A stretch of DNA of 64,000 bases from Agromyces albus (GTDB lineage: Bacteria > Actinomycetota > Actinomycetes > Actinomycetales > Microbacteriaceae), in assembly GCF_004134825.1 (NCBI RefSeq), contig NZ_SDPN01000017.1, forward strand, positions 1-64,000, in the 5' to 3' direction. The notes beneath the pieces are model-generated. The model was not told the origin of the DNA and did not search any database. It was given only the letters and a program-made list of their open reading frames with translations. Positions within the stretch are counted from its first letter, which is position 1; the number at the start of each line of letters is the position of its first letter. Shown one piece after another: positions 55,704-59,366 of this stretch. Position numbers and translations under genes: made by a program.

Positions 55704-57029
55704 GTGGATTCCGTACTCGCGTTCGTGATCGGCGTCGTCATCATCGTGATCGGCCTCGCCGTGTCGATCGGCCTGCACGAGATCGGGCACCTCGTACCCG
55801 CGAAGCTCTTCGGCGTGAAGGTGACGCAGTACATGATCGGCTTCGGGCCGACGCTCTGGTCCAAGCGCAAGGGCGAGACCGAGTACGGCGTGAAGGCCAT
55901 CCCGCTCGGCGGCTACATCGCGATGATCGGCATGTTCCCGCCCGCGAAGGGCGAGCGCGCGGGCTCCGGCAGCACGGGGTTCTTCCGCGCCCTCGTGCAG
56001 GACGCCCGTGACTCGAGCGCCGAGTCGATCACGGCGGGCGACGAGCACCGCGCCTTCTACCTGCTTCCCGTGTGGAAGCGCATCATCGTCATGCTCGGCG
56101 GCCCGTTCATGAACCTCGTGCTCGCCGTGCTGCTCTTCGCGGTGCTGCTCATGGGGTTCGGCGTCGCCCAGGCCTCGACCACCGTCGGATCCGTGTCGGC
56201 GTGCGCACTGCCCGCCACGAGCGAGCGGCAGACCTGCGAGCCCGGCGACCCGGCGGCTCCCGGTGCCGCCGCCGGCATCGAACCGGGCGACCGCATCGTC
56301 TCGGTCGACGGCACGCCCATCGACAGTTGGGTGCAGTCGACGGCGATCATCCGCGACCACCCCGACGAGCCCATCGAGCTCGTCGTCGAACGCGACGGCT
56401 CCGAGGTCGCCCTCACCGTCACACCGATGCTGAGCGAGCGTTACGCCACCGATGAGCGGGGCCGTGTCGTGACGGATGCCGCGGGCGATCCGGTCACCGT
56501 GCAAGCGGGCTTCGTCGGCATCGGGGCGGCGACCGAGACCGTGCAGCAGCCGGTGACCGCCGTGCTCCCGGCCGTCGGCGAGAACGTGGCCGGCGTCGCC
56601 GGCATCATCCTGAACCTGCCGCAACGCATGGTCGACGTCGCGAATGCGGCGTTCGGGCCCGAGGAGCGCGACCCGAACGGGCCGATGAGCGTCGTCGGCG
56701 TCGGCCGGGTCGCCGGCGAGATCGCGAGCCTCGACGAGATTCCGCTCGCGTCGAAGGCCGCCGGCCTCGTGGGCATCCTCGGCTCGCTCAACATCGCGCT
56801 CTTCGTCTTCAACCTCATCCCGCTGCTCCCGCTCGACGGCGGGCACGTCGCCGGCGCCCTGTGGGAGGGCATCCGTCGTTCGTTCGCCAAGCTCTTCCGC
56901 CGACCCGATCCCGGGCCCGTCGACATGGCCAAGCTCATGCCGCTCACGCTCGCGGTCGTCGTGATCCTCGGCGGCATGAGCGCGCTCCTCATCTACGCCG
57001 ACATCGTGAAGCCGGTCGTGCTGTTCTGA
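55704..57029 (+). CDS. M50 family site-2 protease (RseP/Rip1 type)
   Basis: 441-residue intramembrane zinc metalloprotease that releases membrane-held anti-sigma factors or other substrates. Zinc motif HEIGH at residues 25-29 in the first membrane helix; the third zinc ligand region LPLDGGHVAGAL near residue 385; a PDZ domain between (AAGIEPGDRIVSVDGTPI). Four membrane helices. GTG start with TACGCT 6 nt upstream. Confidence 0.94.
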   Translation: MDSVLAFVIGVVIIVIGLAVSIGLHEIGHLVPAKLFGVKVTQYMIGFGPTLWSKRKGETEYGVKAIPLGGYIAMIGMFPPAKGERAGSGSTGFFRALVQDARDSSAESITAGDEHRAFYLLPVWKRIIVMLGGPFMNLVLAVLLFAVLLMGFGVAQASTTVGSVSACALPATSERQTCEPGDPAAPGAAAGIEPGDRIVSVDGTPIDSWVQSTAIIRDHPDEPIELVVERDGSEVALTVTPMLSERYATDERGRVVTDAAGDPVTVQAGFVGIGAATETVQQPVTAVLPAVGENVAGVAGIILNLPQRMVDVANAAFGPEERDPNGPMSVVGVGRVAGEIASLDEIPLASKAAGLVGILGSLNIALFVFNLIPLLPLDGGHVAGALWEGIRRSFAKLFRRPDPGPVDMAKLMPLTLAVVVILGGMSALLIYADIVKPVVLF

Positions 57030-57054
57030 CGTGCTGTTGATGCTCCTGATGCGT

Positions 57055-57070
57055 TACTCCCGAGGGAGTA
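57055..57070. promoter_or_regulatory. Palindrome TACTCCC-GA-GGGAGTA before the sensor kinase gene
   Basis: Perfect 7-bp arms with a 2-bp spacer ending 4 nt before the kinase ATG. A sister palindrome, TGCTCCC-GG-GGGAGCA, lies at 58946 before the SHOCT gene. Most likely the binding site of the response regulator, giving autoregulation; because it overlaps the ribosome binding site it could also act as an RNA hairpin. Confidence 0.6.
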
Positions 57071-57074
57071 GGGG

Positions 57075-58271
57075 ATGAGCATCCGGCGGGCCGATCCGCG
57101 CAAGCGGGCACCGGGCTACGATCGAGGAATGCCCGTGCCCCAGTGGGACGGACGCCCCGAGCGATTCCGGCCGCCGCCCGGCTTCGTGCTGTTCGCGCCC
57201 GTCATCGTCAGCCTCCTCGTGCAGGTGCCGGCGGCCATCGTCATCGCGGCCTGGACCCACGCGGGCTGGCTCGCGGGAGCACTGCACGTCGTGCTCGCTG
57301 CACTCGGCCCGATCGCGCTCCTCGCGTCGGTCCGCTTCCCGGGGCCGACCGTCGCCGTCGTCGCGGCCGCGGCGCTCGCCGACCTGTTGATCGGGCCCGA
57401 CCTCGGTCCGCCCTACGTGGCGCTCGTGTTCGCGATCGTCCTCGCCGTCGCCCGCGGTGCCATCGTCTGGGCAGCAGTGTCGGTCGTGATCGCGTGGGCG
57501 GCCGCGCTCTCGCTCGGCGCAGTGCTCGGTGAGACGTGGCATCCGTTCCGCATCGCCCTGGTGACGCTCGCGCTCGCCGCGAGCTTCGGCATCGGCTCGT
57601 TCGTCCGCACGCGCCGCGCGCGATTCGCCGAGTTCCGCGCCGAGGCGCAGCGCCGCCGGAAGGCCGCCGAGCAACGTGAGCGCGTGCGGATCGCCCGCGA
57701 GCTCCACGACGTCATCGGGCATGCGCTGTCGCAGATCAACGTGCAGGCGAGCGTGGGCCTGCATCTCATGGACCGCGATCCAGAGCAGGCGCGCACCGCG
57801 CTCGGCAGCATCAAGGAGACCTCGAAGACCGCCCTCGACGAGGTGCGCAGCGTGCTCGGCGTCATCCGCGACGGGGAGGCCCCGCTCGCCCCGCAAGCGG
57901 AGCTCGCCGAACTGCCTCGACTCATCGCGGGCGTGCGCTCGCCCGGGCTCGAGCCCCAGCTCGTCGACCGCCTCGAGTCGGCGCCGCGACGAGCGGTGCA
58001 GTTCGCCGCCTACCGGATCGCGCAGGAGGCGCTCACGAACGTCGTGCGGCACGCCGGTGCCGCCCGGGTGATCGTGACCCTCGACCGGGCGGGCGACGAT
58101 CTCGTGCTCACGGTCGACGACGACGGCGCGGGCTTCGACGACCACGAGGGCAGCGGTATCCTCGGCATGCGCGAGCGCGCCGCGCTCCTCGGCGGCTTCG
58201 TCGAGATCGGCGCGTCGCCGATCGGCGGCACGAGGGTCACCGCGCGCCTGCCCTGGGGAGGCGTCGCATGA
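57075..58271 (+). CDS. Sensor histidine kinase (NarX/DesK family)
   Basis: 398 residues. Four to six N-terminal membrane helices (PVIVSLLVQVPAAIVIAAW onward, to ~residue 180), then the HisKA_3 dimerisation helix with H211 in ELHDVIGHALSQ and a C-terminal ATPase domain (VDDDGAGFDDHEGSGILGMRER). No large extracellular domain, so it probably senses the membrane or a partner protein. ATG after GAGGGAGTAGGGG; an ATG at 57129 is an alternative. Overlaps the regulator by 4 nt (ATGA). Confidence 0.93.
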   Translation: MSIRRADPRKRAPGYDRGMPVPQWDGRPERFRPPPGFVLFAPVIVSLLVQVPAAIVIAAWTHAGWLAGALHVVLAALGPIALLASVRFPGPTVAVVAAAALADLLIGPDLGPPYVALVFAIVLAVARGAIVWAAVSVVIAWAAALSLGAVLGETWHPFRIALVTLALAASFGIGSFVRTRRARFAEFRAEAQRRRKAAEQRERVRIARELHDVIGHALSQINVQASVGLHLMDRDPEQARTALGSIKETSKTALDEVRSVLGVIRDGEAPLAPQAELAELPRLIAGVRSPGLEPQLVDRLESAPRRAVQFAAYRIAQEALTNVVRHAGAARVIVTLDRAGDDLVLTVDDDGAGFDDHEGSGILGMRERAALLGGFVEIGASPIGGTRVTARLPWGGVA

Positions 58272-58930
58272 TCCGCGTCGCGCTCGCCGACGACCAGCAC
58301 CTCGTGCGGGCGGGATTCCGTGCGCTGCTCGAGGCCGAAGACGACGTCATCGTCGTCGGCGAGGCATCCGGCGGTGAAGAGCTGCTCGCCCTCGTTCGCC
58401 GCGAGCCCGTCGACGTCGTGCTCATGGACATCCGGATGCCGGGCGGCGACGGCCTCTGGGCGACGGAGCAGATCGCGGCCGACCCGGCGCTCGCCGGCGT
58501 GCACGTCGTGATCGTCACGACCTTCGAGCTCGACGAGTACGTCGCCCGCGCGGTGCGTGCCGGCGCGGCGGGGTTCCTCGTGAAGGACACCGAGCCGGTC
58601 GACCTCATCCGCGCCGTTCGCGTCGTCGCGGCCGGCGATGCCCTGCTCTCGCCGGGCGTGACGAAGCGCCTGCTCGAGCGGATGGCGGTGGGCTTGCGCG
58701 ACGCACCCGACGAGCAGCGCCTCTCCGCCCTCACCGACCGGGAGCGCGAGGTGCTCCGGCTCGTCGGCCTCGGACTCACGAACGACGAGATCGCGACGCG
58801 CCTCGTGCTGAGCCCGCTCACCGCGAAGACGCACGTCTCGCGCATCATGGCCAAGCTGCACGCGCGCGATCGCGTGCACCTCGTCGTCGTCGCCTACGAG
58901 TCGGGCCTCGTGGCACCCGGCTGGCAGTAG
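58268..58930 (+). CDS. Response regulator, NarL/LuxR type
   Basis: 220 residues. Receiver domain with phosphoacceptor D54 (VLMDIRMPGG), acidic pair D8-D9 and switch/Lys region TTFELDEYV...FLVKD, then a LuxR-type helix-turn-helix (LTDREREVLRLVGLGLTNDE, TAKTHVSRIMAKL). Partner of the kinase it overlaps. Its likely targets are the palindromes at 57055 and 58946. Confidence 0.95.
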   Translation: MIRVALADDQHLVRAGFRALLEAEDDVIVVGEASGGEELLALVRREPVDVVLMDIRMPGGDGLWATEQIAADPALAGVHVVIVTTFELDEYVARAVRAGAAGFLVKDTEPVDLIRAVRVVAAGDALLSPGVTKRLLERMAVGLRDAPDEQRLSALTDREREVLRLVGLGLTNDEIATRLVLSPLTAKTHVSRIMAKLHARDRVHLVVVAYESGLVAPGWQ

Positions 58931-58945
58931 CCGCAGTCGGGATCA

Positions 58946-58961
58946 TGCTCCCGGGGGAGCA
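58946..58961. promoter_or_regulatory. Palindrome TGCTCCC-GG-GGGAGCA before the SHOCT gene
   Basis: Perfect 7-bp arms with a 2-bp spacer, the same layout and core (CTCCC-N2-GGGAG) as the site at 57055. A second, looser inverted repeat, CCACC-GGTGG (58974-58983), follows. It lies 115 bp upstream of the SHOCT start. Confidence 0.6.
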
Positions 58962-59060
58962 GGGCAAGTGACTCCACCGGTGGGATTCGCGGATGCCGCG
59001 ACCCGGCGAGACTCTCATCGACGGCCCGATCCGGGGTCGCATCGATCAAGGGAATCTCAC

Positions 59061-59366
59061 ATGCTCGCCACCCTCGCGACCACCGCGGTGGTCACCCACG
59101 CCGGCCCCTGGGCGGCCGGCTTCGGATGGGCCTTCCTCCTCATCCCGATCTTCTGGATCCTCGTCATCGGCCTCATCATCTTCCTCGTGAGCCGCAGGCG
59201 CCACGCCTGGATGATGCACGGCGGCCCCGAGGGCTATGGGCCCCCGTGGATGCGGGGCGCAAGCGCCGAGTCCACGCTCTCCGAGCGGTTCGCCAAGGGC
59301 GACATCGACGAGACCGAGTACCGAGCCCGGCTCGAGGTGCTGCGGTCGAACCGGCCGAACGCCTGA
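59061..59366 (+). CDS. Small membrane protein with SHOCT domain
   Basis: 101 residues: one membrane helix (WAFLLIPIFWILVIGLIIFLV, ~25-45), a His/Met/Pro/Gly-rich loop (HAWMMHGGPEGYGPPWM) and a C-terminal SHOCT motif (LSERFAKGDIDETEYRARLEVL). SHOCT proteins are often accessories of membrane stress systems. AAGGGA ribosome binding site before the ATG. Probably a target of the upstream two-component system, judged by the shared palindrome. Confidence 0.87.
   Translation: MLATLATTAVVTHAGPWAAGFGWAFLLIPIFWILVIGLIIFLVSRRRHAWMMHGGPEGYGPPWMRGASAESTLSERFAKGDIDETEYRARLEVLRSNRPNA

Follow-up and report, generated by a model that had tools for sequence, protein, structure and literature searches.

Paired palindromes in Agromyces albus as predicted operators of a very small two-component regulon that includes a SHOCT-like membrane protein

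Two perfect palindromes, one ahead of a histidine kinase gene and the other ahead of a gene for a small membrane protein, raise the question of whether they are control sites of the two-component system that lies between them in Agromyces albus. They belong to the window analysed here, the whole stretch of 64,000 nucleotides at positions 1 to 64,000 of contig NZ_SDPN01000017.1. An earlier note had described palindrome 1 as TACTCCC-GA-GGGAGTA (57055..57070) and palindrome 2 as TGCTCCC-GG-GGGAGCA (58946..58961), both listed without strand and each with perfect 7-bp arms and a 2-bp spacer; these sequences and coordinates were confirmed, and the common core CTCCCN2GGGAG occurs at these two places only, as the note had also said of the window.

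The genes concerned all lie on the + strand. The kinase gene (57129..58271) follows a gene for an M50 site-2 protease (55704-57029), and its product has Pfam matches to HisKA_3 (E-value 1.1e-20) and HATPase_c (2.3e-10), as expected for the kinase of a NarL/FixJ-type two-component system. It is followed by a response regulator gene (58268..58930), the product of which matches Response_reg (3.5e-25) and GerE (1.1e-16) and is a receiver joined to a LuxR-type DNA-binding domain (NarL/LuxR type); among regulators of solved structure, VraR, NarL, DevR and DesR are closest to it in sequence. The third gene (59061..59366) encodes a 101-aa membrane protein with a C-terminal SHOCT match (PF09851) at residues 69-94 (E-value 5.1e-5), the score of which, 23.3 bits, is below the curated Pfam cut-off of 27, and we therefore term the protein SHOCT-like; its homologues have an identical layout. 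Besides SHOCT it has a weak, sub-threshold Pfam match to FA_desaturase.

Taken by itself, the window gives only moderate evidence, and the pair is no more than mildly unusual there, because perfect palindromes of the same 7-2-7 form are common (24, versus a mean of 16.5 in 40 shuffles, the sequence being 70 % G+C) and 7 of 40 shuffles of the window contain some pair no more than 2.5 kb apart whose arms agree at 6 or more of 7 positions. The core CTCCCN2GGGAG is present twice, versus 0.17 copies expected, and at least two copies were found in 1 of 100 dinucleotide shuffles. One of the 24 palindromes, GACCACC-GC-GGTGGTC, unrelated in sequence, is located within the start of the SHOCT gene (59078-59093). 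In the 4.29-Mb assembly the core occurs five times, versus 15 times for a reversed control pattern; the raw frequency is thus not enriched, and it is location, not number, that carries the signal. In the genome-wide search, which the earlier note had asked for, only the window pair shows the promoter layout described below. The three copies outside the window are found in long open frames (two copies, L003 and L004) and ahead of a gene that reads like a glutaredoxin/NrdH (L005). This last palindrome, GCTCCC-GA-GGGAGC (L094; G000:C57, near 61284), ends some 20 nt short of the ATG, is without the outer T/A and the promoter layout and is probably unrelated. A wider core, TRCTCCN4GGAGYA, has six exact matches in the genome, and the suggestion of a small regulon is supported by their positions: only the window pair lies outside long open frames, and the other four have no NAnnnT at +61 to +63 on either strand. 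Further members of the regulon in this genome were rejected, the remaining exact cores being in coding frames or without the promoter layout, and the regulon here appears to consist of just these two promoters.

That the sites are more than chance follows from their conservation across relatives. The Agromyces sample comprised 60 genomes including that of A. albus, of which 47 have the regulator at 75 % identity or more and 13 do not; the resulting 47 loci (our own and 46 fetched) were scored at the 14 arm positions with a threshold of 12, and like all relatives considered here they are related and hence not independent observations. Of the 47 loci, 44 reach this threshold with the kinase-side palindrome; 45 have the SHOCT gene in the fetched stretch, and 43 of these reach it with the SHOCT-side palindrome. 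The arms are nearly invariant, and the 2-bp spacer drifts. The kinase-side site is missing in orthologues L074 and L078 and scores 11/14 in L055; L079 and L080 score 12/14 and have no box at +62 (see below). The exact pattern TNCTCCCN2GGGAGNA is present in 41 of the 47 genomes with the regulator (G014 and G024 have it at a paralogous system alone) versus one of the 13 without it, and in that single genome the copy is at a different two-component system. Over all 60 genomes, 52 of 63 exact places belong, by hand count, to one of the two promoters (kinase or SHOCT) described here, the reversed control giving 47 in total. No close orthologue of the SHOCT gene was found in the 13 genomes without the regulator, three of which have weak matches of 39-42 % identity.

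Seven extra palindromes in the Agromyces sample (G009:C36, G035:C1:686749, G051:C185, G003:C1, G032:C1, G047:C4 and G035:C1:3438475) were dropped as probably due to chance. In five of them NAnnnT is absent from +61 to +63 of both strands; the other two (L090 and L092) have the hexamer, but neither the second element described below nor a start codon behind the box. In the paralogous two-component system (L087, L088 and L089, in G014, G024 and G029) the kinase gene is itself preceded by a related palindrome, TCCTCCC-N2-GGGAGGA, and a count by eye places TAGCAT at +39, with a GTG behind it. The palindrome centre would there be at about -43.5, and this system would follow the same logic with another palindrome position.

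The distances between the sites and the promoters downstream are strikingly constant. Offsets are counted from the first palindrome base, and the putative -10 hexamer of the kinase promoter, TACGAT (57117..57122, + strand), starts 62 bp past it; TAnnnT starts at exactly +62 in 42 of 44 Agromyces kinase promoters, and ATG or GTG is found at +74 in 42 of 44 loci (ATG 57129 in the window). A TAnnnT box directly before a start codon is a mark of leaderless mRNAs, which are common in actinobacteria. PMC3160421 and PMC3898074 are among the papers on the subject. The position of the box directly before the conserved +74 start is the leaderless signature of the kinase mRNA, which probably begins at ATG 57129 instead of 57075, and with such a start palindrome 1 would be centred near -66.5. 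ATG 57075 was rejected as the conserved kinase start, since only 29 of 44 loci have a start codon (ATG or GTG) there, and L036, a close relative, has lost it. On that codon had rested the idea of an overlap between the first site and the ribosome-binding site, with possible regulation of translation, and this idea does not survive the comparison. At the SHOCT promoter a -10-like hexamer, GAGACT (59008..59013, + strand), likewise lies 62 bp past the palindrome start; it is weaker than a standard -10, and this GAnnnT box is missing in some loci, NAnnnT being at +62 in 39 of 43 Agromyces SHOCT promoters, at +63 in two and absent in two. The predicted palindrome centre is thus at about -66.5 in both promoters. 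The distance from the upstream stop codon, by comparison, varies from 2 to 125 nt for site 1 and from 11 to 509 nt for site 2, and since it floats while the distance to the -10 is fixed, the sites are anchored to the promoters downstream.

Conservation in both Agromyces promoters extends further to positions +22 to +44, which define a second element at 57077..57099 of the kinase promoter and, by column conservation and profile match, at 58968..58990 ahead of the SHOCT gene (consensus GTGnCTCCnccgGGCGGATTCGC; both + strand). When the palindrome profile was slid along the promoters, the best match besides the palindrome itself was at +24 in each, with mean scores of -10.1 and -3.5 versus about -36.5 (SD about 6.6) over the offsets. 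The element resembles a degenerate 7-2-7 copy shifted by 24 bp, and would be a weak, low-affinity site for the regulator with its centre near -42.5, adjacent to the -35 region. The likeness of the two promoters in this stretch may reflect shared descent, and the stretch is far less conserved in distant loci.

Similar sites at similar spacing are found well beyond Agromyces, in Microbacterium, Leifsonia, Arthrobacter, Kitasatospora, Streptomyces and Actinomadura. A contig scan gave 80 named loci, of which 76 reach far enough for the kinase side to be examined; L115 and L133, where the kinase gene runs off the contig, are left out. The kinase-side core matches at 12/12 positions in 41 of these 76 and at 11/12 or better in 55, with 0 of 760 shuffles at either level; 21 fall below 11/12, and after removal of the eight Agromyces loci the figures are 35 and 47 of 68. 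On the SHOCT side 19 of 55 loci have all 12 positions and 38 at least 11 (0 of 550 shuffles), the shuffles for both cores being such that doublets are kept and phylogeny is not. In a separate count 54 of the 76 loci have a kinase-side site that scores 11 or more, and in 48 of these 54 a TAnnnT between +60 and +64 is followed by a start codon, versus 0.8 % of random positions. Exact cores were also counted in six whole distant genomes, where the reversed control occurs 2-18 times per genome: Streptomyces diacarni has one in 7.7 Mb, located at the kinase gene; Kitasatospora phosalacinea three in 8.7 Mb, two of them at this system; Streptomyces acidipaludis seven, with one at the kinase gene and one at the SHOCT gene; Streptomyces fildesensis six, one at the kinase gene; and two Arthrobacter genomes two each, one at the kinase gene.

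A scan of the family found exact TRCTCCCN2GGGAGYA in 94 of 299 genomes, and as the reversed control was frequent there too, only 30 fetched loci (four from Agromyces, our own included) were checked. A kinase, regulator or SHOCT homologue lies within 3 kb in 28 of the 30, some of the kinase matches being only 31-37 % identical, and the fetched 3 kb of L196 and L206 contain none of the three. In three loci from one related genus (L193, L194 and L195) the palindrome precedes a leaderless kinase gene and a SHOCT-like homologue lies on its other side within the same 3 kb, so that a control region shared by the two genes is possible. No published description of the site was among the matches listed in literature searches on the site letters or on SHOCT with two-component systems, with subscription journals partly covered.

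The SHOCT gene is not always adjacent to the regulator gene, and where it has moved the site has moved with it. In three Agromyces genomes (G025, G035 and G041) it is displaced with both the palindrome and the second element retained; the hexamer at +62 is GAGCAT in G025 and AAGGCT in G041, and in G035 it is not of the form NAnnnT. In Leifsonia sp. C5G2 (L121) the SHOCT gene is upstream on the opposite strand with a 12/12 site of its own. The SHOCT gene of S. acidipaludis is about 9 kb from the kinase site (L235/L237), with TACTCCCGCCGGAGCA 113 nt before its ATG and CAGGCT at +62. It is followed by a frame that by eye reads like an ABC-transporter ATPase, a hint of an export or envelope role there. 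Among 18 distant genomes without a recognized linked SHOCT gene, 10 have a SHOCT homologue (E-value 0.001 or better). The SHOCT-side core scores 11/12 at four Actinomadura loci, with GAGCAT at +63, and 11/12 in Actinoallomurus; the further best matches score 10 (L238, L239 and L241) and 9 (L240), and second-best or weaker SHOCT-like matches (L247-L251), a post-hoc negative control, score only 8-9.

The reading that we strongly favour is that both palindromes are operators of the neighbouring NarL-family regulator, the phosphorylated form of which would activate its own operon and the SHOCT gene from the 7-2-7 site, probably with the help of a second dimer. The autoregulation and SHOCT-gene control that the earlier note had predicted are strongly supported by the comparison: the sites are conserved, their promoter spacing is fixed, they occur together with the regulator, and the site moves when the gene does. 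The membrane-embedded kinase would sense a signal, for which the state of the envelope or membrane is the best guess, and phosphorylate the regulator. A regulator dimer would then bind the palindrome, a predicted high-affinity operator with its centre some 66 bp ahead of the transcript start, and a second dimer would probably occupy the degenerate copy 24 bp downstream at about -42.5, beside the -35 region. The two dimers would recruit RNA polymerase both at the leaderless kinase-regulator operon, giving positive feedback, and at the SHOCT-like gene.

This order of events, palindrome first, then the weaker site and activation of both promoters, is proposed by analogy with better-known systems. 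Inverted heptamers of 7-2-7 form, as judged by sequence form, stand at the target promoters in the window and in relatives, as in the E. coli NarL operators of ogt and yeaR, and binding here by a dimer is suggested by that likeness. According to the accessible part of PMC7419079, 7-2-7 sites are bound by a dimer of E. coli NarL, which activates at ogt from -44.5 and -77.5 and can act from a lone site at -67.5. An engineered perfect NarL site, TACCCCTAAAGGGGTA, reported in the available portion of PMC4549865, is very close in form to TACTCCCGAGGGAGTA of this system. The heptamer here, unlike that of NarL, is TRCTCCC, the target genes are others, the kinase mRNA is probably leaderless, the site-to-site spacing is 24 rather than 33 bp, and nitrate sensing is not implied. 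A second comparison is with DevR/DosR of mycobacteria, likewise an actinobacterial NarL-family regulator, which acts cooperatively on its own operon (the Rv3134c-devRS promoter) and which to our knowledge has no SHOCT partner. The promoters that DevR controls have a primary and a secondary site (PMC7018068, available text), as predicted here. Its motif is another, its regulon far larger and its signal redox/hypoxia. The envelope-sensing systems LiaRS, VraSR and DesKR are similar in that VraR and DesR are among the nearest solved regulators and in the form of the kinase, which as read from its sequence has membrane helices and no obvious outer sensor domain. Unlike those systems, the partner here is a SHOCT-like protein and not LiaF or a desaturase, and a Pfam scan of the two neighbours of the gene pair, the M50 peptidase upstream and the SHOCT-like protein downstream, found no LiaF-type protein. 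SHOCT-like domains have been linked by gene context to envelope and membrane-stress systems (PMC11237479, in the part available).

The regulator could instead bind these sites as a repressor, so that its own operon and the SHOCT gene would both be under negative feedback. Sequence cannot separate the two modes and NarL-type regulators are capable of both, NarL repressing frdA and activating narG (PMC4549865, available portion); we nevertheless consider repression unlikely, since neither of the predicted sites, at -66.5 and about -42.5, covers the -10 or the start, and NarL activates from comparable positions (PMC7419079, accessible part). Marginally less probable again is that the sites serve another regulator, either a NarL-type paralogue or an unrelated factor that controls this operon. 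The genome (G000) has 28 matches to this regulator type that could in principle bind the same sequence, and the palindrome of the paralogous system indicates that related systems use similar sites, but the exact site accompanies the regulator across Agromyces in the proportions given above, with the caution that loss of the locus also removes its sites, and in S. diacarni the site at this kinase gene is the only exact core of the genome. The palindromes might lastly be RNA hairpins, as terminators of the upstream genes or as translational structures, each being shortly behind a stop codon (57029 to 57055 and 58930 to 58946) and the first having seemed to overlap a ribosome-binding site, but this we reject as very improbable: no T run like that of an intrinsic terminator follows either palindrome (by eye), the full stem could not close over a loop of only 2 nt, the spacing is tied to the downstream promoter and not to the upstream stop, the arms keep their letters with little covariation (both-sided versus one-sided changes 3 versus 34 at site 1 and 0 versus 19 at site 2), the site accompanies the SHOCT gene on relocation, and with a kinase start that is probably leaderless palindrome 1 would be outside the kinase transcript.

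With both palindromes taken as operators of the neighbouring regulator, the presence of similar sites at equal spacing in distant soil bacteria points to an old and very small self-regulating circuit. A more tentative proposal, which we put forward as a speculation with the odds against it, is that kinase, regulator and SHOCT-like protein form a complete, closed three-gene circuit that goes back to an early ancestor of the actinomycetes and has a regulon of no more than two promoters, identical in architecture. In this circuit the SHOCT protein would be produced solely while the switch is on, and would serve the kinase at the membrane as its dedicated partner in feedback. The analysis provides a predicted operator, a promoter geometry and a target list, all of them testable, for a two-component system that ranges from Agromyces to Streptomyces and Actinomadura, and it connects membrane proteins of the SHOCT-like type with one sensing system. 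The fixed spacing between palindrome and -10, together with the probably leaderless kinase mRNA, offers a handle for finding such regulons in other actinobacteria.
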